Source: Treponema sp. UBA792 (GTDB taxonomy: Bacteria > Spirochaetota > Spirochaetia > Treponematales > Treponemataceae). From it: a stretch of DNA of 64,000 nucleotides. A program made the position numbers and the translations under genes. The notes under the pieces are model-generated. The model was not told where the DNA came from, did no database searches, and saw only the letters and a list, made by a program, of their open reading frames with translations. Location: positions 1-64,000 of the forward strand of contig DBIW01000012.1 in assembly GCA_002296965.1 (NCBI GenBank). Reading direction: 5' to 3'. How positions within the stretch are numbered: the first letter of the stretch is position 1; every line of letters begins with the position of its first letter. Shown here piece after piece: positions 1-12,320 of the stretch.

Positions 1-81
1 GCGCCGTTGTTTCTCCATAAATCACGTGCCAATTTGCCGCGCAAATTGCGGAACGGCGTGGATTCAGTTTTTAAATGAAAA

Positions 82-110
82 TTGAATTCATCGCGCCGTT
101 ACCGTATACT
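82..110 (+). promoter_or_regulatory. sigma70-type promoter of the flavoprotein gene
   Basis: TTGAAT (82-87), 17-bp spacer, TATACT (105-110). The predicted transcript start is about 117, only a few bases before the ATG at 120, so the mRNA would have almost no leader. Confidence 0.5.
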
Positions 111-119
111 ACACTCCGC

Positions 120-1718
120 ATGAAAAAGGAAATTTCCATAACCGTCACGCCGGCTGACGAGAAAAACACCGGACTTACGGAGAGACTGGCCAGAAAAGAG
201 CTTGCAAAAGCCGGAATAAAAACCGAAGGAAGAAAAATATCCTTCCGGATTCAGAAAAAATCGGTCGACGCAAGGCACGGAGGACTTAAAATCCACCTAA
301 AATTCACGGCTTATATAGACGAGGATCCCGAAAATCCGCCCGCAGTTCCATGCTGGAAAAAATCAGACGGAAAAAATCAGGTAATCATAGTCGGTTCCGG
401 CCCCGCAGGACTTTTCGGCGCGCTCAAACTGCTTGAGCACGGAATCAAACCGGTGATAATCGAACGCGGTTCGGAGACATCACAACGCAAGAAGGACATC
501 GCGCTGATAAGCACGAAACATACTGTCAATCCCGACTGCAACTACTGCTTCGGCGAAGGAGGAGCAGGAACTTTTTCCGACGGAAAACTTTTCACCAGAA
601 GCGCAAAGCGCGGAGACACGGGCGGAATTCTCCGGATTTTCGCGCATTTCGGAGCCGATCCGAAAATTCTGACAGACGCGCATCCGCACATCGGAACAGA
701 CAGACTTCCGCAAATAATCAGCAGAATCAGAGACGAAATCACCGCTCTTGGTGGAGAATTTCATTTCAACACACGGCTCACAGGATTCATCGCCGGAGAC
801 AGGACAGTAAAAGGTGTCCGCACCGAAAATACGCTTACTGGAGAAAAGACGGAATTCACAGGAGATGCGGTTCTTCTTGTGGCCGGACATTCCGCCGACG
901 ACATATATTCCGCAGTCGCGGCGCTCTCTCCGGAGTCTCTCGAAGCCAAAACGTTCGCCGTCGGCGTGAGGGCGGAACATCCGCGGGAACTTATAGACAG
1001 AATCCAATACCACGGAAAGACAGGAATTCTCCCGGCCGCGGAATACCGGCTCACGGCTCAAGTTGACGGACGCGGAGTCTATTCATTCTGCATGTGTCCG
1101 GGCGGATTCGTGGTTCCGTCCGCGACCTCACCGGACGAAATTGTGGTGAACGGAATGTCGTCGGCGGCAAGGAATTCAAGATGGTCAAACGCCGCTTTCG
1201 TCGTTGAGACCAGGCCGGAAGACATTCCCGCAGAATTCTCGCTTCAGGCAGAAAAGTCCGGCTGCGGCGCGCTGGCAGGACTTCTGTTCAGAAAAGAGAT
1301 TGAACGGGCGGCAAAAAGACACGGAAACGGACAGGCGGCACCGGCTCAACGGCTGACAGATTTTCTGGAAAAACGGATCTCCTCATCACTGCCGCAGTCA
1401 AGCTACACTCCGGGACTCCATTCCTCGGAACTTAACAGCTGGCTTCCTGAGGCGATTCGGGCAAGGCTCTCAAAAGGTTTTTGCGAATTCGGAAAAGCGA
1501 TGAGAGGATTCATCTGTGAAGATGCGGTTCTGATTGCCGCGGAGACAAGAACAAGCACACCGGTCAGAATCAGGCGCAACAGGACGACACTGGAATGTGA
1601 GGGAATTCAAAACCTCTACCCGGCAGGAGAAGGAAGCGGCTGGTCCGGCGGAATTGTCTCAAGCGCGGTTGACGGTGAAAATTCCGCAGAAAGAATCGCG
1701 CTCCGGTTAGGCCGATAA
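120..1718 (+). CDS. FAD-dependent dehydrogenase of the COG2509 type
   Basis: Probable FAD/NAD(P)-dependent oxidoreductase; substrate unknown. From the ATG at 120 it has 532 residues. A Rossmann dinucleotide-binding loop (VGSGPAG) lies near residues 90-97 after a short N-terminal domain typical of COG2509 proteins. CFGEGGAGTFSDGK and a C-terminal GEGSGWSGGIVSSAVDG segment match the FAD-contacting parts of that family. The frame is open up to an ATG at 75, but that part covers a promoter (TTGAAT 82-87, 17-bp spacer, TATACT 105-110). Neither ATG has a Shine-Dalgarno sequence, so I start at 120 and infer a nearly leaderless transcript. The family is clear; the metabolic role is not. Confidence 0.8.
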   Translation: MKKEISITVTPADEKNTGLTERLARKELAKAGIKTEGRKISFRIQKKSVDARHGGLKIHLKFTAYIDEDPENPPAVPCWKKSDGKNQVIIVGSGPAGLFGALKLLEHGIKPVIIERGSETSQRKKDIALISTKHTVNPDCNYCFGEGGAGTFSDGKLFTRSAKRGDTGGILRIFAHFGADPKILTDAHPHIGTDRLPQIISRIRDEITALGGEFHFNTRLTGFIAGDRTVKGVRTENTLTGEKTEFTGDAVLLVAGHSADDIYSAVAALSPESLEAKTFAVGVRAEHPRELIDRIQYHGKTGILPAAEYRLTAQVDGRGVYSFCMCPGGFVVPSATSPDEIVVNGMSSAARNSRWSNAAFVVETRPEDIPAEFSLQAEKSGCGALAGLLFRKEIERAAKRHGNGQAAPAQRLTDFLEKRISSSLPQSSYTPGLHSSELNSWLPEAIRARLSKGFCEFGKAMRGFICEDAVLIAAETRTSTPVRIRRNRTTLECEGIQNLYPAGEGSGWSGGIVSSAVDGENSAERIALRLGR

Positions 1719-1737
1719 CGGAATAAGCGCGCGACAT

Positions 1738-1766
1738 TTTACATTTTCCGAATAAAGAACTATAAT
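1738..1766 (+). promoter_or_regulatory. promoter giving a leaderless transcript of the membrane HTH gene
   Basis: TTTACA (1738-1743), 17-bp spacer, TATAAT (1761-1766). The ATG follows after 5 bases, so transcription should begin at or next to the start codon. There is no ribosome-binding site. Confidence 0.65.
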
Positions 1767-1771
1767 ATAGT

Positions 1772-2527
1772 ATGCGAAAAAAACTTTCCCTTGAACGGCT
1801 GCTTATGCTCATGTCCACGGTGTTTCTTTGCACTGCGTTTGTCGCGAGCATAACAGCCACAACACCGAAAACCACGATAATTCCATACTACAAAACGGTC
1901 ATTCCTGCCGTACACGCAATATGCATTCTTGTATCGGCTTTCCTGATTTTCTGTCCGGAACAGATTGTTCTTGTGTCCGCTCTTGCAATAACCGAAAGCA
2001 GCCTGACAATTCTTATCGGATACGAGCAGCTGGGAATTTTTATATTCTATGCGATTGTGATTTACCTTTTCACAAACGGGTATCTTGTTTTTCAGACCAA
2101 GCTCAAGCTGTCACTGCTTGCGACTGTCCACATACTGTCACTTATCGGCACATACAGACGCGGACTGCCGCAGATGGCGCTGTCAATAGCCACATCAGCG
2201 TTCTTCTGCACATTCTACATCATCATCTACAAGAAACTTCATCACCAGCTGTCCTATCTGTGTCCGACAAAAATCGCAAAAAATGACAGAATAACGCAAA
2301 AAGAAGGAACCACGCTCCATCTTTCGGAATTCGACCTGACCGGACGGCAGATAAATCTTACGCTGGACTACATATATGAAAACCTGAATTACAACCAGCT
2401 TGCAGAAAAATATATTATCAGCCTGTCAACCGTAAAAAATGATTTCCGCAGAATTTTTAAAGTCTTCAACGTGACAAAACTGGAAGAACTGCACATCCTC
2501 CTTATCAGATACAAGATTGAAAGATAA
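1772..2527 (+). CDS. membrane-anchored LuxR-type HTH regulator, copy 1
   Basis: 251 residues. The first ~155 are hydrophobic, with about six membrane segments (roughly 10-31, 42-61, 64-83, 86-105, 112-127, 134-153). A cytoplasmic C-terminus (about 185-250) resembles a LuxR/GerE helix-turn-helix: LTGRQINLTLDY, then YNQLAEKYIISLSTVKNDFRR. No receiver domain is visible, so it may sense a membrane or small-molecule signal directly. It is clearly homologous to the protein at 26275-27024 (same layout, shared TVIPA, GYE.LGIF and FKVFNVT/FKIFNVT blocks). The start codon lies 5 bp after a TATAAT box. Ligand and targets are unknown. Confidence 0.75.
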   Translation: MRKKLSLERLLMLMSTVFLCTAFVASITATTPKTTIIPYYKTVIPAVHAICILVSAFLIFCPEQIVLVSALAITESSLTILIGYEQLGIFIFYAIVIYLFTNGYLVFQTKLKLSLLATVHILSLIGTYRRGLPQMALSIATSAFFCTFYIIIYKKLHHQLSYLCPTKIAKNDRITQKEGTTLHLSEFDLTGRQINLTLDYIYENLNYNQLAEKYIISLSTVKNDFRRIFKVFNVTKLEELHILLIRYKIER

Positions 2528-2528
2528 A

Positions 2529-2564
2529 ACACCGGCGGAAAGCCAATCAAGACAATCCGCCGGT
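2529..2564. terminator. hairpin terminator between convergent units
   Basis: A 10-bp perfect stem (CACCGGCGGA / TCCGCCGGTG) directly after the membrane HTH gene. The T run is weak on the plus strand; on the minus strand the stem is followed by TTTTATC. It may act in both directions. Confidence 0.5.
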
Positions 2565-2854
2565 GCATAAACTCTCCATCTCAACGGAACTCTCCAACAG
2601 TTCCGCTCCGGCCAGAACGGTTCAACTCATCCTGACCAAAACTCTCCAACTCTCATGACAGCAGCGCTCTATAGAATCGCGAAAAACTTTCAAAGTACCG
2701 AAACCGCATCTCGCAGTCTCGGACTTATCGTATTGCAAACTTTCCGCTGCTGTCAATCTTTGGAGAACCAGTTTTTTACGAAATAACCAGAGTACACAGA
2801 AGAAAAAACCAAAGTTTATTTTTTTGTAATCAATACAATATATTTTTGTAATAA
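2565..2854. other. non-coding gap between convergent genes
   Basis: About 290 bp between the hairpin and the end of the ABC ATPase gene. I see no credible gene, RNA or repeat. The part next to the ATPase gene (about 2760-2850) is A/T-rich with T runs on the minus strand and may hold its 3' end. Confidence 0.4.
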
Positions 2855-3577
2855 TTACAGCACAGATTTCAGGAACTGCTGCAGCCTCTCGCACTTTGGA
2901 CTCATAAAAATCTGCTCCGGACTGCCTTCCTCGGCGATATATCCGCTGTCCATAAAAATAACCCTGTCGGCAACTTCCTTCGCAAAGCCCATCTCATGGG
3001 TAACCACAACCATCGTCATCCCCTCATCGGCGAGCTGCTTCATTACGGCAAGCACTTCACCCACCATCTCCGGATCAAGAGCTGATGTGGGTTCATCAAA
3101 AAGCATCACCTCAGGATTCATTGCAAGCGAGCGGACTATGGCGATACGCTGTTTCTGACCGCCAGAAAGCGTTGAAGGATAGACATAAGCCTTGTCCGGC
3201 AGTCCGATGCGCTCAAGAAGCTTCATCGCGTCTGCCTCTGCCTGCTCCTGAGTCTTCAGTTTCAGTGTTATCGGCGCAAGTGTTATGTTCTGCATGACCG
3301 TAAGATGAGGGAAAAGGTTGAAATGCTGAAAGACCATCCCCATTTTCCTCCGGCAGGCATCAATGTCGACATCCGGGGAAGTAAGATTCACACCCTCGAA
3401 GAGAATCTCACCTCCGTCAGGCTCCTCCAGACGGTTGAGACAACGGAGAAATGTGCTTTTGCCGGAACCGGACGGTCCTATAACGACAATTTTCTCGCCT
3501 TTCTGTATATGAACAGAAAGATCCTTTATAACCTCAAGCTGACCGAAACTTTTCCTAAGATTCTTAACGTCTATCAC
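2855..3577 (-). CDS. polar amino acid ABC transporter ATPase (HisP/GlnQ type), operon 2
   Basis: Cytoplasmic ATPase energising uptake of a polar amino acid, about 240 residues. Walker [10 protein letters not shown], signature LSGGQKQR, Walker [13 protein letters not shown] and switch VTHEMGF are all intact. I choose the GTG at 3577 (protein beginning [12 protein letters not shown]) over the upstream TTG at 3598, because family members begin at this point and an AAAGGA sequence precedes it. The start overlaps the end of the permease gene, indicating translational coupling. It is last in the operon binding protein, permease, ATPase. A paralogue lies at 5176-5934. Confidence 0.9.
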
Positions 3578-4235
3578 TTCGTGCCATCCTTTTTTCAAGT
3601 TTTGAGAAAAGCTTTGTAAGTCCGACCGTCAGGACAAGATATATCACGGCGCAGGTAAGAAGAGGAATCCAGGCATTATAAGTCGAATTTCTTATCATGT
3701 CGCCAGCCTTTGTAAGATCCATCACGGCGATAAAACTTGCGACCGAAGTCTCTTTTATAAGAACAATGAATTCACTCGCATAAGTCGGAAGCACAGCCTT
3801 TATCGCCTGCGGAAGAACAATCCTGAACAGGGTCTGCCATTTGTTCAGTCCGAGCGAACGGCCCGCTTCCGTCTGCCCCGGATCTATCCCCTGAATTCCG
3901 GCGCGGAAAATTTCGGTGCAGTATGCGCCGGAATTGAATCCGTAGGCAAGAATCGCCACAACCATGCGGTTCAGACCGAGCGGTGCAAAAATCACAAAAT
4001 AAAAAATCATCAGCTGGGTTGCAAGAGGAATACCACGGAGAACGGTTGTGTAGACATTCGCTATGGCACGGAGAATTCTGCTGCCGGATATTTTCATCAA
4101 GGCGAAAACACAGCCAAGAACTGTTCCGATAAGAATCGCAAAAACCGCGATAAGAAGGGTAACACCCAGTCCCTGAAAAATAAGATGCCAGCGGTCGCCG
4201 GCAATCATCGTATCAATAAAAGATTGTAGCACCAA
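3564..4235 (-). CDS. polar amino acid ABC transporter permease (HisM/GlnP type), operon 2
   Basis: 223-residue inner-membrane permease with about five hydrophobic segments. The family EAA loop is recognisable ([25 protein letters not shown]), which docks the ATPase. It lies downstream of the permuted binding protein, separated by a terminator-like hairpin, and overlaps the ATPase start. Such permeases normally form homodimers or heterodimers; only one permease gene is present, so a homodimer is likely. Confidence 0.9.
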
Positions 4236-4248
4236 ATCACCTCGGAAA

Positions 4249-4295
4249 CAAAAAAGGCCGGCTCCATCCGAAAAAACCGTCGGATTTCACCGGCC
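4249..4295 (-). terminator. intercistronic terminator between binding protein and permease
   Basis: On the minus strand, GGCCGG...ATCCGA...TCGGAT...CCGGCC forms a hairpin with an internal loop and is followed by TTTTTTG. It sits between the binding-protein gene and the permease gene and would reduce downstream transcription, so that binding protein is made in excess, a common arrangement in ABC operons. Confidence 0.7.
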
Positions 4296-4313
4296 CTTCA
4301 CATTGATTTATTT

Positions 4314-5084
4314 TTATTTGCGGACGATAATCACCTGCTCCGACTCATAGTACGGATCAGAGAAATCAACATTTTTCTTGCGCTCTTCCGTGACGGACAT
4401 TCCGGCGGCAATAAAATCTATTGTTCCTGATGCAAGCGCCGGAATAAGACTGTCGAACGCCATATCGACAACCTCAAGCTTTGCGCCGGCCTTCACCGCA
4501 ATGTGCTGTCCCATGGAGATGTCAAAGCCCACGATGTTCTTTCCGTCAACATATTCAAAAGGCGGGAAAGAGGCGTTTGTTCCGAGCTTTACGGAAGAAG
4601 CTCCCGAAGTGGCTACATTTCCGGGAACCACAATGTTTCCATCGGCAGGCATGAACGCCGCAATAAGCTTCTCGTATTCACCGTTGGATTTTATCTCCGC
4701 GATCGCGGCATTGATTGTGCCAAGAAGCTCGCTGTTTCCTTTTTTGACGGCGATTGCATATTCCTCACGGGCAAAACGGTCAGTCACAATCATAAGATCC
4801 GGATTGCGCGCGACAATCTCCTTTGCCGGAAGCTCGTCAATCACGACCGCATCAATCGCGCCGTTCTTAAGATCAAGCGCCGCATCGATTCCGCTCTTAA
4901 ACGAAGAAAGCTTGGCATCCTTCACGTTCTCCTGAACATACATCTCACCGGTTGTTCCTGTCTGAACACCGATTTTCTTGCCGTCCAGATCGGCAGCTGT
5001 CTTTATCGTGACAGTATTTTTTGAACATCCTGAAAAAACAGAGGCCGCTATAAGCGCGGCACAGACCAGACTGATTTTTTTCAT
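4314..5084 (-). CDS. circularly permuted polar amino acid-binding lipoprotein (SBP_bac_3)
   Basis: 256-residue lipoprotein; signal peptide ends at lipobox FSGC (Cys20), and GAGGAG precedes the ATG. The two halves of the family fold are in swapped order. Residues about 25-145 match what is normally the second part (IKTAADLDGKKIGVQTGTTG ... EYAIAVKKGNSELL). After a linker (about 146-164), residues 165-256 match the usual N-terminal part (LGTNASFPPFEYVDGK ... GMSVTEERKKNVDFSDPYYE) and the protein ends at VIIVRK, the normal hinge. Total length is that of an ordinary member. The neighbouring paralogue at 6625-7434 has the canonical order. No leftover halves flank the gene, so this is not a frameshift. 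Likely ligand: a polar amino acid. Confidence 0.9.
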   Translation of the reverse strand: MKKISLVCAALIAASVFSGCSKNTVTIKTAADLDGKKIGVQTGTTGEMYVQENVKDAKLSSFKSGIDAALDLKNGAIDAVVIDELPAKEIVARNPDLMIVTDRFAREEYAIAVKKGNSELLGTINAAIAEIKSNGEYEKLIAAFMPADGNIVVPGNVATSGASSVKLGTNASFPPFEYVDGKNIVGFDISMGQHIAVKAGAKLEVVDMAFDSLIPALASGTIDFIAAGMSVTEERKKNVDFSDPYYESEQVIIVRK

Positions 5085-5150
5085 AACAAAAACTCCTCAA
5101 AATCCGCACGCCGGACGCACGGAACATTCATGCCGAATACTCTAGCATTT

Positions 5151-5179
5151 TTTTATACTAAACTCAAGTTTCCTGTCAA
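5151..5179 (-). promoter_or_regulatory. promoter of the second amino-acid ABC operon
   Basis: On the minus strand TTGACA (5174-5179, overlapping the stop of the upstream ATPase gene), a 16-bp spacer and TATAAA. This gives operon 2 its own start, independent of operon 1, and it lacks the GGCAA leader found on operon 1. Confidence 0.55.
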
Positions 5180-5934
5180 AGCACGGACTGAAGAAACTGC
5201 CGCAAGCGGTCGGATTCAGGATTCTGGAATATCTTCTCAGGAGTTCCCTCCTCCGCAATTCTTCCGTCGTACATGAACACGACCCGGTCTGCAACCTCGC
5301 GGGCAAATCCCATCTCGTGCGTTACAACAGCCATGGTCATGCCGTCGGAGGCAAGCTGCTTCATGACAGAAAGGACCTCGCCGACAAGCTCAGGGTCAAG
5401 AGCGGAAGTCGGCTCATCGAAAAGAATGGTTCTCGGCTCCATCGCAAGCGCACGCGCGATCGCCACACGCTGCTGCTGTCCGCCGGAAAGACGGTTCGGA
5501 TACGCGTCAGTCTTGTCGGCGAGACCGACTCTCTCCAGAAGTTCAAGTCCCCTTTTTCTGGCCTCGTCAGGCGATTTATGCAGAACATTCATCGGGGCGA
5601 GCATCACATTCTCAAGCACAGTTCTGTGCGGAAAAAGGTTGAATTTCTGGAACACCATTCCAAGATGAAGCAGAATCTCACGCCGTGATTTTGAAGAAAG
5701 ATGAATCCGGCTGATTCCGTTCTCATAATGGGAAAGCAATTTTTCTTCTATATATATAGCTCCATTATTTATGTGCTCAAGATGATTCAGCGTCCTAAGA
5801 AAAGTTGATTTTCCGGCTCCGCTCGGTCCGATTATGCAAAGAACCTCCTTTGGCTTTATCGAAAGCGAAACGTCTTTAAGCACATCCAGTTTTCCGAAGG
5901 AGACGCTGATATTTTCAGCTCTTATCATATCCAT
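5176..5934 (-). CDS. polar amino acid ABC transporter ATPase (HisP/GlnQ type), operon 1
   Basis: About 252 residues; Walker [10 protein letters not shown], signature [16 protein letters not shown], Walker [13 protein letters not shown] and switch VTHEMGF are intact. A short insertion ([20 protein letters not shown] region) lies between Walker A and the Q-loop compared with the paralogue at 2855. I prefer the ATG at 5934 ([14 protein letters not shown]) over the in-frame GTG at 5949. It is the last gene of operon 1, 18 bp after the permease. Confidence 0.9.
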
Positions 5935-5952
5935 ACAAAACCCCAGCACGAA

Positions 5953-6612
5953 TCATTCGTAGACAGAATGTTTCTTTTCAAGCAGATGAAAAATCAGACT
6001 GAAGACAGCCGTTATCACAAGGTAAAGGACCATCGCCGGAATATACACAAGCGATGAAGCCGTGGACGACTGGATGCTGCGCGTAACCTTCGTAATATCT
6101 GCAAGCGCAATCAGCGAAACAAGGGACGCATCCTTCAGCATCATGATGAATTCGTTTCCGACAGGAGGAATCAGACGGCGCACCGACTGCGGAAGAATCA
6201 CCAGCCGCATTGTCTGAAAATAGTTCAGTCCAAGAACCTTGCAGGCCTCGAACTGGCCGCGGTCTATGGACTGGATTGCCGCACGGATTATCTCGCTGCA
6301 GTAAGCGCTGCTGTTCAGGCCGAAAGCTATGAACGCCGCAAGGAACTGGTTGTTTATTGTAAACGCGCGGTTTATTTCCGGAAGTCCGTAATACACAAAA
6401 TAAAGCTGCATAAGAAGCGGCGTTCCGCGGAAAAAGAAAACATAAGCCTTGCAGAGCGCACGGACGATTTTTACCTTTGACATTGAACCGAGCGCAAGAA
6501 ATATGCTCAGAACAAGACCTGCGGAAACAGAACAGAGCGTAAGCAGAACTGTTATTTTCGCACCGCCGAGAAGCTGCGGCATCCATCCGAGCATTCTGTG
6601 AATCATATCCAT
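5953..6612 (-). CDS. polar amino acid ABC transporter permease, operon 1
   Basis: 219-residue membrane protein of the His/Glu/Gln/Arg permease family. It has about five hydrophobic helices and an EAA loop (GQFEACKVLGLNYFQTMRLV). It begins 12 bp after the binding-protein stop and is followed after 18 bp by its ATPase. Its closest relative in the window is the permease at 3564-4235, consistent with an old tandem duplication of the whole operon. Confidence 0.9.
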   Translation of the reverse strand: MDMIHRMLGWMPQLLGGAKITVLLTLCSVSAGLVLSIFLALGSMSKVKIVRALCKAYVFFFRGTPLLMQLYFVYYGLPEINRAFTINNQFLAAFIAFGLNSSAYCSEIIRAAIQSIDRGQFEACKVLGLNYFQTMRLVILPQSVRRLIPPVGNEFIMMLKDASLVSLIALADITKVTRSIQSSTASSLVYIPAMVLYLVITAVFSLIFHLLEKKHSVYE

Positions 6613-6624
6613 AACTTCTTAAAC

Positions 6625-7434
6625 CTACCGCGCATCCTTTATGCTGTCAGAAAGATCCATTCCGAAAATCTCCATATAAATTGATGCAAGCGTTCCGTCC
6701 TTCTTCATGTCGGCAAGCACGGAATTTATCTTTGACTGGAGAACGGAATTTCCCTTTTTAAGGCAGATTGCGAAATGTTCATCCGGAACACCTTCCCAAA
6801 CCTGCACAAATTCCGAATCCGGTTTTGCAAGGTAAGACACCGCGACAAGACTATCGCTTACGACAGCATCTATTCTGCCAAGCCGCAGGTCATCGTACGC
6901 ATTCATCACCTTGTCATATTCGGACGGAGTAAAAACAAGCCCGGCCGCCGCCTGTCTGTCCATAAAAAAATCACTTGTACATTCAGCCTGATAGCCGACT
7001 TTTCTGTTCTCAAGGTCGGCAGGAGATTTTATCGGAAGGACAGAATCCCTGCGCAGGATAATCGCCTGACCGTTTCCGATATAAGGCTCCGAGAAATCAT
7101 AATTGGCGCTGCGTTCCGGCGTGATTGTGACGGAAGACATAATCACATCGTAACGCTCGGTGTCCAAGCCGGCAAAAATTCCGTCCCAGGCAGTATCAAT
7201 AAAAACCGGCTCAAGACCAAGCCGTTCCGCGACCGCCGCTCCAAGGACCGCATCAAATCCGAGAATCGTCTTTCCGTCATCGGCATAATACTCAAACGGA
7301 GGATAACCGACTTCCGTTCCGATTCTGAGCTTTCCTTTTTCCAGCGTGAATTCTCCCTTCTCGGCTTTTTTGGCGCATCCGGAAAAACCCACGGCGGCCA
7401 ACATCATAATCACCGGAAACATATTTTTCTTCAT
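6625..7434 (-). CDS. polar amino acid-binding lipoprotein (canonical SBP_bac_3), operon 1
   Basis: 269 residues; lipoprotein signal with lipobox FSGC. Domain order is the normal one: lobe I start GYPPFEYYADDGKTILGFD, ITPERSANYDFSEPY, then the second lobe IKSPADLENRKVGYQ and the C-terminal FAICLKKGNSVLQSKINS. This makes it a useful internal reference for the permuted paralogue at 4314-5084. GGAGG precedes the ATG. Expression is probably controlled by the terminator-type leader at 7462-7511. Confidence 0.92.
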   Translation of the reverse strand: MKKNMFPVIMMLAAVGFSGCAKKAEKGEFTLEKGKLRIGTEVGYPPFEYYADDGKTILGFDAVLGAAVAERLGLEPVFIDTAWDGIFAGLDTERYDVIMSSVTITPERSANYDFSEPYIGNGQAIILRRDSVLPIKSPADLENRKVGYQAECTSDFFMDRQAAAGLVFTPSEYDKVMNAYDDLRLGRIDAVVSDSLVAVSYLAKPDSEFVQVWEGVPDEHFAICLKKGNSVLQSKINSVLADMKKDGTLASIYMEIFGMDLSDSIKDAR

Positions 7435-7461
7435 ACAAACCTCCAGATTTCCCGTTCATTT

Positions 7462-7511
7462 AAAAAAGAAAGGGCAACAGCAGAATCAAAACATTCCGAC
7501 ACCGTTGCCCT
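7462..7511 (-). promoter_or_regulatory. 5'-terminal attenuator leader (GGCAACGGTGTC) of amino-acid ABC operon 1
   Basis: Minus-strand transcript reads GGCAACGGUGUCGG, and AGGGCAAC pairs with GUUGCCCU ahead of a U-rich tail, giving a Rho-independent terminator about 30 nt before the Shine-Dalgarno. The promoter directly upstream (TTGATA 7544-7549, 17 bp, TATAAT 7521-7526) predicts a start near 7514, about 5 nt before the motif. The same motif and geometry occur at amt, glutamine synthetase and the chemoreceptor-like gene. Confidence 0.7.
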
Positions 7512-7520
7512 AGATTCCGA

Positions 7521-7549
7521 ATTATATTATTTATCGGAGATTATATCAA
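7521..7549 (-). promoter_or_regulatory. promoter of amino-acid ABC operon 1
   Basis: On the minus strand TTGATA (7544-7549), 17-bp spacer, TATAAT (7521-7526), placing the start a few bases before the leader hairpin. Confidence 0.65.
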
Positions 7550-7592
7550 CATCAAGCGGATTTTTTTGCGGATGAACGGAAAAAACGGGCAA

Positions 7593-7622
7593 TTGAATTT
7601 ACATACTCCGTGATGTTATAAT
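7593..7622 (+). promoter_or_regulatory. promoter of argJB
   Basis: TTGAAT (7593-7598), 18-bp spacer, TATAAT (7617-7622). The predicted leader to the ATG at 7663 is about 34 nt and contains GGAG some 18 nt from the start codon and the small palindrome GTATAAATATAC, which might be an operator. The latter is a guess. Confidence 0.55.
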
Positions 7623-7662
7623 ATGCAAAATTATTCATCTGGAGTGTATAAATATACAAAAA

Positions 7663-8955
7663 ATGAAAACAGAAATAAAATTCATAGAAGGCGGAGTCAC
7701 GGCTCCGGAAGGATTCACCGCAAACGGAATTCTCTGCGGAATCAAGCCGGGCAGAAAGACGAATGACACCGCGCTGATTTTTTCCGACCGTCCGTGCGCC
7801 GCGGCCGGAGTCTTCACCACAAACCGCGTAAAAGCCGAAAGCGTAAAGCTGACAATGCGCAATCTTGCCGACGGAAAGGCCCAGGCCGCAATCGCCTCAA
7901 GCGGAAATGCGAACGCCTGCACAGGAGAAAAAGGCGCGGAGAACGCGCGCAGAATGGCGGCGGCGGCGGCGGATTCCCTCGGAATAAAACCGGAAGACGT
8001 GATTGTCTGCACGACAGGCGTAATCGGGCAGCAGATGGACGTGTCAAAAATCGAGGCAAAAATAGGAGAGCTGAAAGCCGGGCTTTCAAAGGAAGGCCAC
8101 GCCCAGGCACGCACGGCAATAATGACGACCGACACAAACTTCAAGGAATGTGCGGTTGAATTCGAGCTGCACGGAAAAAAAATCCGGATGGGAACAATGT
8201 GCAAGGGCAGCGGAATGATTCACATAAACATGGGAACAATGCTCAGCTTTATAACGACAGACTGCGCGATAAGCTCCGAAATGCTTTCAAAAGCCCTGCG
8301 CTATTCTATAGAAGAAACCTACAACTGCGTGTCCGTTGACGGCGACACAAGCACGAACGACACGCTTACAGCAATGGCGAACGGAGAAGCCGGAAATCCG
8401 GAAATAACAGACGAAGGCGAGGATTTCGGAATTTTTCTTGCAGCGATGAACAGGATGAACACCGTAATGGCGATGAAAATCGCGGCGGACGGAGAAGGCG
8501 CATCCCGGCTGATTGAATGTACCGTAAAAGGCGCAAAGGATTCCAAAACCGCACGTAAAATCGCAAAAGAGGTAATCGGCTCCAATCTTGTAAAGGCGGC
8601 GATGTTCGGAAAGGATGCCAACTGCGGACGGATTCTCTGCGCCATGGGATATTCAGGCTGCGAATTTACTCCGGAAAAAACAAGCGTCTTCTTCTCAAGC
8701 AGAAAAAATGCGGAACGCTATTTCTCCGGTTACGAGAATTTTTCAGTCGCGGCGGACGATTCCTGCGGAGAAAGCATAGAAGTGATTCACGACGGAGTCG
8801 GACTTGATTTTGACGAGGAGAAGGCCGCGCGGATTCTAGGTGAACAGGCGGTCGAAATTCTCGTGGTTCTTGACGACGGAGACGCCGAAGGAAAGGCCTG
8901 GGGCTGCGACCTGACCTATGATTATGTGAAGATAAACGGAGACTACAGGACATAA
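7663..8955 (+). CDS. argJ: bifunctional ornithine acetyltransferase / N-acetylglutamate synthase
   Basis: 430 residues, full family length. ArgJ transfers acetyl from N-acetylornithine to glutamate and can also use acetyl-CoA, closing the cyclic arginine pathway. It is made as a precursor that cleaves itself before a conserved Thr. Here the site reads [16 protein letters not shown], with Gly before the Thr where Ala is usual (NMATML). Other family blocks are present: [41 protein letters not shown]. The stop overlaps the argB start (TAATG), so the two are translationally coupled. argC and argD are not in the window. Confidence 0.93.
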
Positions 8956-9860
8956 TGGCAGACATAGAAATTCAGAAAGACGAAAAACGCGGACGCTCAT
9001 TGGACAACGAGCATTGGTCGGACGTGCTTGTCCAGGCGCTTCCGTATTTCAGGCAGTGGTGCGGAAAAATTGTCGTCATAAAATACGGCGGAAACGCAAT
9101 GCTCAACGACGAGCTCAAGGCCGCAGTAATGAAAGACCTTGTGCTGCTGAACACAATCGGCGTCCACGTGGTGCTTGTTCACGGCGGCGGACCGGAAATA
9201 AACAGAATGCTCGACCGCGTCGGCAAGGAAAGCAGATTTGTGAACGGACTGCGCTACACGGACGGCGAGACGATGGAAATTGTCCAGATGGTTCTTACAG
9301 GAAAACTGAACAAGGACATTGTCGGAATTCTTCTTCAGGAAGGCGGACGTGCCGTCGGACTCAGCGGAGTGGACTCAGGACTTCTGCGTGCAAGAAAAAT
9401 CGAAAAGGACGGAGCCGACCTCGGATATGTAGGTGAGGTCACTTCAGTTCATCCGGAAGTCGTAAGCTCACTTCTTGAGCAGGGATTCATTCCGGTAATC
9501 TCGACCGTTGCGCTGGGAGAAACAGGCGACAACAACCGCTACAACATAAACGCGGACACCGCCGCGGCAAAAATCGCGGTCGCACTGAAAGCCGAAAAAT
9601 TCGTGCAGCTCACGAATGTTCCCGGCGTTCTGCAGAACATGAATGACCCGTCCTCGCTGATAACAAGAATTCCAATGCCGACAGTCCCCAAGCTGATTGA
9701 TGACGGAATAATAGCGGGCGGAATGATTCCCAAGGTTGAATGCTGCATGACCGCGCTCAAAGGCGGAGTTCCAAGAACCCACATCATCGACGGGCGCGTT
9801 CCCCATTCGCTTTTGATTGAGATGTTCAGCGACCGCGGAGTCGGAACAATGATTTACTGA
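8955..9860 (+). CDS. argB: acetylglutamate kinase
   Basis: 301 residues of the amino-acid kinase fold, phosphorylating N-acetylglutamate in arginine synthesis. The nucleotide-binding segment [10 protein letters not shown] and the substrate loop [14 protein letters not shown] are intact, as is the C-terminal [11 protein letters not shown] region. The extended N-terminus (about 25 residues before VVIKYGG, with [17 protein letters not shown]) resembles arginine-feedback-inhibited forms, so inhibition by arginine is plausible. Start overlaps the argJ stop by one base. Confidence 0.95.
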
Positions 9861-9884
9861 CAGCCCGAAATCCGCATCTCTATT

Positions 9885-10901
9885 TCAGGCAAGGCGGACT
9901 ACAGTTCCGCCTTTCAGCAATCTTCCCGTGACAAGACGGCGTGTCCTTTCCGGAGGCGCGCCGTTTTCTATGTCCGATATAAGACGCTCACCGATGAGTT
10001 TTCCGATCGACTCTCCGTTCTGCTCGTATGTGGTCAGCGGCGGAATTATCATGGATGTAAGAAGGATTCCGTCATAGCCGACAATACTTATGTCCTTTCC
10101 CGGAGAAAGGCCGAGGCTGTTCAGCTCGCGTATTCCGCCGAGCGCAGAATAGTCATCAGGATAAAAAATACAGGTCGGAGGCTCCGGCAGCGACATCAGA
10201 ATTTCGGTGGCATCGGAACTGGTTATCGGATCGTTGTAAAGCCCTTCGGCAAAATACTCGCCGGGAACATTTATCGAATGTCTTTTCATCACATTCAGAA
10301 ACGCCTTCCGCCGTTCCGCCGTGACCAGAGTGTTCTCCCCGTGAATCATCGCAATCCGGCGGTGTCCCATCGCAACCGCATATTCCGCAAGTTCCGTCAT
10401 TCCGCTGGTGTTGTCGCTCAGAACGGCGCTGTGTCCGTCATCATACACATAATCAAGCACAACGGACGGAATCTCGCTGTGAACAAGGCGGCAGATGTCG
10501 TCCCTGCGGAAATCCGCGGACAGGACGGCCACTCCGTCAAAATTCCGCGCCTTGATATGATTGTAATAATCAAAATTCCGTCCGGGTGCCGAGCCTGTAA
10601 ATGTAATCTCATAGCCTTCGCGCTGGGCCACCGACTGCAGTCCGCTGATTATCTTGGCAAAATACTGATGCTGAAAGCCGCTGCCGGTTTTATCCTCAAA
10701 AATAACACCGATGTCGTAGGTGCGGTTGGTTCTGAGGGTTCTGGCCGCGACATTAGGATGATAGCCCATTTCAGACGCCTTTTCCTTTATGAGCCGGATT
10801 GTCTCCGCACTTATCTCCGCACTGCCCTTAAGAGCCTTGCTGACTGTCGAAAAGGAGACACCACATTCACGGGCAACATCCTTCAAGGTAACCAACTTCA
10901 A
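9885..10901 (-). CDS. LacI/GalR-family transcriptional regulator
   Basis: 338 residues. N-terminal LacI helix-turn-helix (TLKDVARECGVSFSTVSKALKG) and hinge, then a periplasmic-binding-like effector domain (YDIGVIFEDKTGSGFQHQYF ... DISIVGYDGILLTSMIIPPLTTYEQ). The start is TTG at 10901, with GGAGG 5-6 nt upstream. It is divergent from the orphan binding lipoprotein at 11178, whose promoter region carries a LacI-type palindrome at 11074-11087. The effector is probably a sugar or sugar-like compound, but nothing here identifies it. Confidence 0.88.
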   Translation of the reverse strand: MKLVTLKDVARECGVSFSTVSKALKGSAEISAETIRLIKEKASEMGYHPNVAARTLRTNRTYDIGVIFEDKTGSGFQHQYFAKIISGLQSVAQREGYEITFTGSAPGRNFDYYNHIKARNFDGVAVLSADFRRDDICRLVHSEIPSVVLDYVYDDGHSAVLSDNTSGMTELAEYAVAMGHRRIAMIHGENTLVTAERRKAFLNVMKRHSINVPGEYFAEGLYNDPITSSDATEILMSLPEPPTCIFYPDDYSALGGIRELNSLGLSPGKDISIVGYDGILLTSMIIPPLTTYEQNGESIGKLIGERLISDIENGAPPERTRRLVTGRLLKGGTVVRLA

Positions 10902-11073
10902 ACCTCCGGATTAAGATTAACACGTCCTCCAAGGCACATTTACGCAAAAGACCTTGGCTCCGCCGTTTTCAGATTCGGATAAACACAAATGAACATCCCG
11001 GCGCAAAAACCGGGACGGCAAATTCTCCACACGAATAACTTATACTATAAATCTTAATGCGGAATTCCGCAAG

Positions 11074-11087
11074 CGAAATCGTTTTCG
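11074..11087. promoter_or_regulatory. LacI-family operator-like palindrome
   Basis: CGAAATCGTTTTCG: arms CGAAA/TTTCG around a central CG, the usual form of LacI/GalR operators. It lies 25 bp upstream of the -35 box of the binding-lipoprotein gene and between it and the divergent LacI gene. Confidence 0.55.
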
Positions 11088-11111
11088 TAAATGTGCAAAA
11101 CATAAAACATA

Positions 11112-11140
11112 TTTACACTCAAAAAAAATTTTATTATAAT
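11112..11140 (+). promoter_or_regulatory. promoter of the orphan binding lipoprotein
   Basis: TTTACA (11112-11117), 17-bp spacer, TATAAT (11135-11140). Predicted start near 11147; TTTTGGAGGATAT gives a strong Shine-Dalgarno before the ATG at 11178. Confidence 0.65.
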
Positions 11141-11177
11141 TCAAGAAATTAACAAAAACTAAAGTTTTGGAGGATAT

Positions 11178-12320
11178 ATGAAAAAACTTGGTGCAGCAAT
11201 CACCGCCGCGGCATGTATATTTGCCATGGCTTTTACAGGATGTTCAAAAAAAGAATCCGATTCCATCAGCATCGGTTTTATCGGACCGCTCTCCGGCAGC
11301 GTCGCCGTTTATGGTGTTGAATGCAAGAACGGCATTGATCTTGCGGTCTCAGAAATCAACGCGGCAGGCGGAATCAACGGAAAAAAAGTTGTTCTTATCG
11401 CCGAGGATGACGAGGGAAATCCGGACAAAACCGTAAACGCCTTCAAAAAGCTCACGACAAAAGACGGAGTAAAGCTGATTATCGGCTCACTTACCTCAGG
11501 ATGCACGCTTGCCATCACGACTCTTTCTCAGGCAAGCAAGGTGGTTCAGATTGCTCCGGCCGCGACAGCTCCCGCAATCACTGATGCCGGAAACTACATT
11601 TTCCGCTCATGCTTTATCGATCCTTTCCAGGGAACTGTCGGAGGAAAATTCGCCGCCGAGACGCTCGGAGCCGGAAAAGCGGCGATTCTCTATGACATCG
11701 GAAACGACTATTCCGTAGGTCTTGAGGAGAATTTCCAGGTCGCCTTTGCCGCCAACGGAGGACAGGTCGTCGCGATTGAATCATATTCCACAGGCGACAA
11801 GGACTTCAACGCGCAGCTGACAAAAATCAAGAATGCGAATCCCGATGTCGTTTATCTTCCTGATTATTACGGAACGGTCGCGCTTATCGCAAAGCAGCTC
11901 CGCGCCCAGGGAATCAACACTCCGATTGTAGGAGCCGACGGATGGGACGGACTCACATCAAACGCCGGCGACGAGGTTCTGAACGGATTCTACTCAAACC
12001 ACTATGCGGCCGACTCAACCGATGCGGCGGTAGTGAAATTTGTAGGCAACTTCAAGAATATGTTCAGCAAGGAGCCGAATTCTTTCGCGGCTCTCGGATA
12101 TGATTCCGTCTACCTGCTGTCAGATGCAATCAAAAAAGCAGGAACAACCGACACTGCGGCCGTCCGCGACGCGCTCGAAGCAGCCGACGGAGATTACGTG
12201 ACCGGTCACCTTACGTTCGACGAGAAGCACAACCCGATCAAGTCCGCCGTCATGGTTGAAATCGTGAAGGGCGCTGACGGAAAACTGACCTCAGTCTACA
12301 AGGCGACAGTCAATCCGTAA
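11178..12320 (+). CDS. branched-chain amino acid-type substrate-binding lipoprotein (LivJ family), orphan
   Basis: 380 residues; signal peptide with lipobox FTGC. Peripla_BP_6/LivJ-type fold: ISIGFIGPLSGSVAVYGVE at the mature N-terminus, IGSLTSGCTLA, PDVVYLPDYYGTVALIAKQ and FAALGYDSVYLL. These proteins capture leucine/isoleucine/valine, amides or related ligands for Liv-type ABC importers. No Liv permease or ATPase follows; a strong terminator comes 26 bp after the stop. It must therefore pair with a transporter elsewhere or serve as a sensor. The LacI-type operator nearby suggests regulation by the divergent gene. Confidence 0.88.
   Translation: MKKLGAAITAAACIFAMAFTGCSKKESDSISIGFIGPLSGSVAVYGVECKNGIDLAVSEINAAGGINGKKVVLIAEDDEGNPDKTVNAFKKLTTKDGVKLIIGSLTSGCTLAITTLSQASKVVQIAPAATAPAITDAGNYIFRSCFIDPFQGTVGGKFAAETLGAGKAAILYDIGNDYSVGLEENFQVAFAANGGQVVAIESYSTGDKDFNAQLTKIKNANPDVVYLPDYYGTVALIAKQLRAQGINTPIVGADGWDGLTSNAGDEVLNGFYSNHYAADSTDAAVVKFVGNFKNMFSKEPNSFAALGYDSVYLLSDAIKKAGTTDTAAVRDALEAADGDYVTGHLTFDEKHNPIKSAVMVEIVKGADGKLTSVYKATVNP

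Follow-up and report, generated by a model that had tools for sequence, protein, structure and literature searches.

A circularly permuted SBP_bac_3 lipoprotein of Treponema, probably serving a polar amino-acid ABC importer, and the history of its segment order

Two importer gene sets and a lipoprotein with swapped segments

The window analyzed here is a 64,000-nucleotide stretch of contig DBIW01000012.1 from Treponema sp. UBA792 (assembly GCA_002296965.1). It holds an operon in which a permuted substrate-binding protein (SBP) is followed by a permease and an ATPase, with a second SBP/permease/ATPase set of normal order immediately upstream (Table 1). The permuted SBP is encoded by the open reading frame 4314-5084 (-), which opens with ATG and yields 256 residues, with a lipobox (FSGC) that ends in Cys20. 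A first-pass annotation made from the sequence had proposed that the two segments of a polar amino-acid-binding protein stand in reversed order in this full-length 256-residue lipoprotein, and matches to Pfam, NCBIfam and the structure of AncQR agree on that point. The Pfam profile SBP_bac_3 (PF00497) scored 128.9 bits against the window protein (curated cut-off, 26.4 bits), not colinearly in one stretch but in two stretches of swapped order, as the annotation had expected of such a search; the best of them pairs residues 166-256 with profile positions 2-92 of 132. The swap is visible from both sides in the NCBIfam matches, since positions 17-118 (of 250) of TIGR01096 fall on window residues 155-256 and positions 136-263 (of 266) of PRK11260 on residues 22-148. 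In the PDB alignment, AncQR (4zv1) chain positions 11-104 correspond to residues 164-256 and positions 105-227 to residues 23-141.

Table 1. Features of the permuted-SBP operon and of the adjoining normal-order transporter set in the window
Feature	Coordinates	Strand	Basis or remark
Permuted polar amino-acid substrate-binding lipoprotein, 256 aa	4314..5084	-	Profiles, PDB alignment, AlphaFold2
Signal peptide and lipobox	5025..5084	-	Lipid-anchor Cys20 (codon 5025-5027), few residues ahead of the lobe II segment
Segment D2 (residues 24-145)	4650..5015	-	Lobe II, second hinge, C-terminal helices of lobe I
Linker (about residues 146-163)	4596..4649	-	Starts MPADGNIVVP
Segment D1 (residues 164-256)	4317..4595	-	Lobe I core, ends in hinge strand VIIVRK
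ABC permease (BPD_transp_1; TIGR01726 polar amino-acid type), presumed partner	3564..4235	-	78 bp downstream of the permuted SBP
ABC ATPase (GlnQ/HisP-like), presumed partner	2855..3598	-	Follows the permease in the permuted-SBP operon
SBP_bac_3 lipoprotein, normal order, first gene of second system	6625..7434	-	ORF and Pfam
Permease of neighboring normal-order system	5953..6612	-	
ATPase of neighboring normal-order system	5176..5949	-	

Segment D2 is the C-terminal half of an ordinary protein by profiles, PDB alignment and predicted secondary structure, which bears out what the annotation had supposed of the N-terminal stretch (about residues 24-145), and D1 is the N-terminal half by profiles, PDB alignment and AlphaFold2. 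The window lipoprotein is a full-length SBP_bac_3 protein in which the two segments have changed places, the break lying at the first lobe hinge; natural circular permutation with new termini at that hinge, as proposed, has the support of profiles, of the predicted fold and of a survey of genomes. The linker, first put at about 19 residues, was near that length, spanning the tabulated residues in the window protein and 19-22 residues across relatives (227 distinct permuted sequences). The SBP upstream, claimed to be a paralogue of normal order, indeed gave a single colinear SBP_bac_3 stretch (residues 36-258 on profile positions 1-131 of 132). The NCBIfam types that best matched the permuted protein were lysine/arginine/ornithine, cystine, arginine and glutamine, all of them below their own curated cut-offs. 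An Rfam search of window positions 1-12000 returned no match. A 251-residue frame at 1772-2527 (+) had no Pfam match and, by eye, looks hydrophobic towards its N terminus and carries a LuxR-like helix-turn-helix at its C terminus.

Predicted fold, lipid anchor and probable role

The structure prediction suggested with the annotation was run, and AlphaFold2 returned a complete two-lobe Type II fold for the permuted protein (pLDDT 88.1, pTM 0.73), beside pLDDT 90.6 and pTM 0.83 for the canonical-order relative P0121. The secondary-structure elements of the permuted model are those of P0121 set in cyclic shift. Structure search placed the P0121 model with ArgBP and GlnBP structures at a TMq of about 0.8, and the permuted model reached a TMq of at most 0.47 among the 50 Foldseek matches listed, an expected outcome since a sequential search meets a permuted order; with Foldseek and VIA-align alike, its matches were partial or limited by order. 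Among the best 60 of 108 PDB sequence matches there was no solved permuted SBP_bac_3 chain. Asp83 and Arg235, which by comparison with LAO/GlnBP we take to be the residues holding the amino-acid backbone, are invariant in all 62 aligned permuted rows.

Read from the order of the elements, each lobe would be contiguous, with one covalent crossing between lobes and not two. After Cys20 the chain would pass through lobe II, the second hinge and the C-terminal helices of lobe I, then through the linker into the lobe I core, and would end in the first hinge strand, so that both termini would sit at the vacated crossing. The permuted SBP would then close on its ligand as an ordinary Venus-flytrap protein does and hand it to the permease. 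Segment order, conservation, operon context and predicted fold come here from computation; ligand binding and any effects on hinge dynamics are what we infer.

The annotation had placed the lipid anchor at the hinge. This holds for the 190 of 239 distinct permuted sequences in which a simple pattern finds a lipobox, and fails for the other 49, so the permutation is independent of anchoring; judged by these motifs, hinge anchoring is usual yet dispensable. The lipobox-free permuted sequences (P0029, P0038, P0049 and others) often have VFAGG or AXA-like signal ends, and some such members are probably soluble. The stretch between the lipid Cys and the lobe II segment is just 6-7 residues long in 177 of the 190 lipobox-bearing sequences. 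Such a tether would be short if the hinge faces away from the membrane while the protein is docked, which lends something to the idea that the permuted protein acts as a sensor or co-receptor and not as an importer SBP, its hinge anchor blocking docking on the permease. We consider that idea improbable. The annotation had called for related genomes to be surveyed for the permuted form beside transporter genes, and in the fetched loci 86 of 97 distinct permuted SBP genes are followed immediately by a permease gene (83 of the 91 where at least 1,300 bases follow), with an ATPase close to 59 of the 69 that have enough flank; canonical-order relatives are served by orthologous permeases; the 49 members mentioned have no lipobox; and a second permuted family, described below, includes a member in which the SBP is fused to a permease (L182). 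A role as the binding protein of the adjacent importer is the reading we carry forward.

Spread and changes of segment order

At E ≤ 1e-60, uninterrupted relatives were found in 33 of 59 genomes of the genus (own included), each as one single match; neither chance nor misassembly accounts for the permutation. Colinear relatives occurred in 66 of 145 family genomes (own included), with one more split over contig ends, and in 35 of 296 phylum genomes (own included), six of these outside the family. The permuted form is present in 9 of the 20 genera of the family, and relatives of the window's type (family A) in 6 of 245 genomes of a class centered on one metagenome-assembled genome (MAG) labeled Clostridia. 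A scan of GTDB species genomes confirmed 563 loci, of which the best 80 were taken, and all 80 had the permuted architecture. Treponema and other spirochaetes account for most of these, with records named T. bryantii, T. socranskii and T. saccharophilum among them, and five came from MAGs labeled Clostridia, Oscillospiraceae or Verrucomicrobiota. Many of the surveyed genomes are MAGs, in which single contigs may be misbinned. Third codon positions differed 2.5-3.5 times as much as first and 3.4-5.0 times as much as second positions in six pairwise comparisons, indicating purifying selection in all six. Some metagenome hybrids of permuted and canonical genes do look chimeric (P0205, below), as a sequencing, assembly or gene-calling artefact would have it, but with permuted order at every one of the best 80 loci and with purifying selection its probability is negligible, and for the window gene it was ruled out on the colinear relatives across the family and the same selection.

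Family A includes the clostridial loci L162-L165 under a single origin with modest support in three trees (96/89, 90/67 and 88/48), which suggests one permutation common to the window protein and these clostridial relatives. Another clostridial family (B) also has swapped order, with a different linker of YIGDxxGxxPYxSPEG type, and was found in 6 of 245 Clostridia-class genomes at E ≤ 1e-80; one of its members, L182, carries permuted SBP and permease in one chain of 537 residues in a Clostridia-class genome. Family B falls among ordinary clostridial proteins in the tree, and a single clade of A and B was rejected by the AU test (P = 0.00329 with and P = 0.004 without the canonical Treponema rows). 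Family B therefore arose independently, at the same hinge.

Among 274 family genomes, 16 carry a canonical-order protein, and every one of these belongs to the window's genus; the proteins share 51-65% identity per half with the window protein, and none of the 16 genomes (completeness 61-99%) shows a standalone permuted copy. Their neighboring permeases reach 75-83% identity with permuted-operon permeases, and the canonical locus L177 and the permuted locus L044 have in common glgP-like (81%), eamA-like (50%), permease (73%) and MATE-like (63%) neighbors, gene names having been assigned by eye. Eleven canonical loci were compared: a permease is present at ten and an adjoining ATPase at five, with neither at L178. 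At L025, L026, L027, L177, L178 and L179 there is no ATPase beside the permease, unlike most permuted operons. An MPxDG-type motif marks the linker in 219 of 227 distinct permuted relatives, and the near-identical clostridial loci L181 and L167 have an MPxDG/IPxDG-type linker as well. Of 57 distinct canonical Treponema sequences, 56 end in the same motif as a C-terminal tail of 15-16 residues, and a tail also occurs in 2 of 68 other canonical sequences (P0225, of the Treponema kind by its tail, and another with a five-residue tail). The tail was dropped as proof of direction, as an ancestral tail could equally have turned into the linker.

For the trees, near-duplicates were removed by k-mer overlap (514 rows reduced to 108), and the SBP tree was built from a hand-picked 67 of the 108 rows plus L163, with the halves set in one order; omitted from it were, among others, L002, L003, L006, L030, L034, L119 and P0354, and P0241 units were dropped from the trees of family B and of L042/L043. 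A quick tree in which long-branched rows were kept needed three changes of order. In the SBP tree, 13 canonical Treponema rows (98/94) lie inside a 31-row clade (99/94) together with 18 permuted rows. One clade of all permuted rows appeared in 0 of 200 bootstraps for the SBP, also after L162, L163 and L165 were dropped, and likewise in 0 of 200 each for D1 alone and D2 alone (clostridial permuted rows included), for the permease, and for SBP and permease joined. The joined tree has a 20-row clade (100/99) of ten canonical and ten permuted rows within a Treponema clade (99/95), and permuted clostridial L120 and L124 lie outside the latter. With clostridial permuted rows included, AU tests rejected one permuted clade (SBP: P = 0.00225; permease: P = 3e-5); when these rows were left out, it was not rejected (SBP: P = 0.396; permease: P = 0.204; joined: P = 0.162), and with that loss of significance the first tests were dropped as proof of a reversal.

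Rooting puts the direction of change in doubt, as a root on the canonical branch would make the canonical Treponema proteins the parent form. The bootstraps, the two genes and the limitation of the canonical form to one genus against permuted order in 9 of 20 genera nonetheless favor a reversal, and a Treponema subclade has probably returned to canonical order at orthologous loci. Such a return would have kept the type of locus and an orthologous permease as neighbor, and the former linker would survive as a C-terminal tail. The SBP trees imply one such reversal (98/94 and 96/93) and the joined tree two, a single canonical clade not being rejected there (P = 0.444). If there was no reversal, the tailed canonical Treponema proteins would be the surviving parent form, with the linker derived from their tail, and clostridial proteins of the L162 type would have been permuted on their own. 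We regard this as unlikely, though it deserves real weight: the AU tests that left out clostridial rows do not reject one permuted clade, family B demonstrates that permutation at the same hinge was repeated, and the tail is compatible with this direction too. It accords poorly with a permuted clade that never appeared in 200 bootstrap trees of the SBP, the permease or both joined, with canonical rows grouped at 100/99 with ten permuted ones while clostridial L120 and L124 stay outside the Treponema clade, with the like linker of clostridial L181 and L167, and with a canonical form confined to those 16 genomes of one genus. Horizontal gain of an ordinary SBP gene, followed by recombination with the permuted gene already present, is disfavored and very improbable; permuted genes do occur in both Spirochaetota and Clostridia, but in 200 bootstraps each the D1-only and D2-only trees never gave one permuted clade and the neighboring permease nests likewise, so that no foreign half is visible.

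With reversal as the preferred direction, we lean towards seeing the permutation as a reversible, near-neutral state: at least two switches to permuted order and one or two back, made in place at one hinge next to an orthologous permease, the linker persisting as a relic tail. A plausible route to permutation is tandem duplication followed by loss of the outer halves. For the return, a D2-linker-D1 gene would have been duplicated in tandem and trimmed to D1-D2-linker, and the mirror event would have produced the first permutation. The independence of family B, the nested tree position and the tail were obtained by computation, and the duplication-and-trimming route and the direction in the Treponema subclade by inference.

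Tandem units are present in P0344, P0273, L042 and L043, and no trustworthy tandem intermediate was found among the relatives. P0205 (378 residues, D1-D2-D1) was considered as the missing intermediate and set aside as most likely an assembly chimera of a permuted and a canonical gene: it is identical to the ordinary P0242 at 239 of 240 positions up to residue 240 and at 8 of 28 beyond, the switch point lies within the conserved EEYAIAVKKGNTELL stretch, and the gene stands on a single 5.8-kb contig. Going by P0205, 19 other D1-D2-D1 or D2-D1-D2 proteins of 379-404 residues were set aside as suspected chimeras. Metagenome proteins of 378-404 residues such as P0260, P0268 and P0276 are probable chimeras too, the measurement having been made for P0205 only. 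P0344 (D1-D2-D1-D2, 501 residues, 73.7-kb contig) is a believable canonical tandem that does not stand next to family A in the tree. The arrays of L042 (1101-4109, -) and L043 (1761-4751, -) are about 1,000 residues long, with three D2-D1 repeats and then a BPD_transp_1 permease. They were rejected as intermediates, forming a separate long-branched group of ambiguous register: their D1-D2 joints have 10-14 and their D2-D1 joints 18-24 residues, and adjoining D1 and D2 segments inside the arrays might form canonical units. Genome G023 has long frames of 1,109 and 812 residues with repeated permuted-order matches. On a single contig of a Clostridia-class genome, L173 (3177-4355, -) encodes a 392-residue SBP of D1-D2-D2 form, by its sequence an apparent intragenic duplication of D2 with a breakpoint near the hinge.

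Taken as one scheme, that the product of 4314-5084 is a circularly permuted, working SBP of the adjacent polar amino-acid ABC importer, with family B and the probable Treponema return as parts of its history, is a reading we hold with good confidence.

Known permuted binding proteins and what both orders may teach

With the SBP_bac_3 proteins GlnH, ArgBP, ArtJ and HisJ (cluster F/Type II) the window protein has in common the family, the predicted fold, the clamp residues and the permease/ATPase operon; it differs in its swapped segments, its hinge termini and what would be one lobe crossing in place of two. Natural permutation of a binding lipoprotein is known from T. pallidum, where TpMglB-2 (Tp0684) is a solved, circularly permuted glucose-binding lipoprotein ("Type Ic/Cluster Bc") whose homologues are found chiefly in treponemes and Gram-positive bacteria (PMC4990184). 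That protein belongs to another family with a Type I sugar-binding fold, its permutation adds a fourth crossing where the window protein would lose one, and no reversal is described in the text consulted (PMC4990184). In the window protein there was no match to Type I sugar-binding (Peripla_BP) domains; at E ≤ 0.001 Pfam gave only SBP_bac_3, NMT1 and Lig_chan-Glu_bd, and so no OpuAC match either. Circular permutation among glycine-betaine-binding proteins, including OpuAC, was found with CPSARST; it was detected by structure at <24% identity and concerns another ligand and Pfam family (PMC2395249), whereas here both orders occur within one genus at the per-half identities given above. GlnPQ-type fusions with tandem substrate-binding domains (6h30) have tandem SBP units in canonical order. 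Permuted residues 28-252 align over their SBD1-SBD2 junction (103-326), a register where a permutation could be cut; unlike GlnPQ, L182, P0273 and the arrays of L042 and L043 open with D2, and D1 is their last segment ahead of the permease.

The annotation's statement that no annotated class has this order stands for SBP_bac_3 as far as searches of open-licence literature show, and falls for binding proteins at large, permuted TpMglB-2 and glycine-betaine-binding proteins having been published (PMC4990184, PMC2395249). Among the papers listed in those searches there was neither a permuted polar amino-acid-binding protein of SBP_bac_3 nor a reversed permutation. Natural permutation of binding proteins was known already; the present case adds a polar amino-acid family with a rich evolutionary record.

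Annotation, sequential structure search and profiles of one order conceal permuted proteins such as these. Circular permutation has mostly been inferred between distant structures, and this makes it difficult to learn at what rate it happens, by what route and with what consequences. Within this single genus both orders exist, at orthologous loci with orthologous permeases, and there is an independent clostridial repeat, which makes three questions testable with natural proteins: whether opening and affinity change when one of two hinge crossings is lost, how docking is still possible with an anchor 6-7 residues away from the hinge, and how often permutations are fixed or undone. Permutation is usually treated as one-way; if the Treponema reversal is true it would be reversible, and the genus would offer a natural experiment on one versus two hinge crossings in a Venus-flytrap protein.
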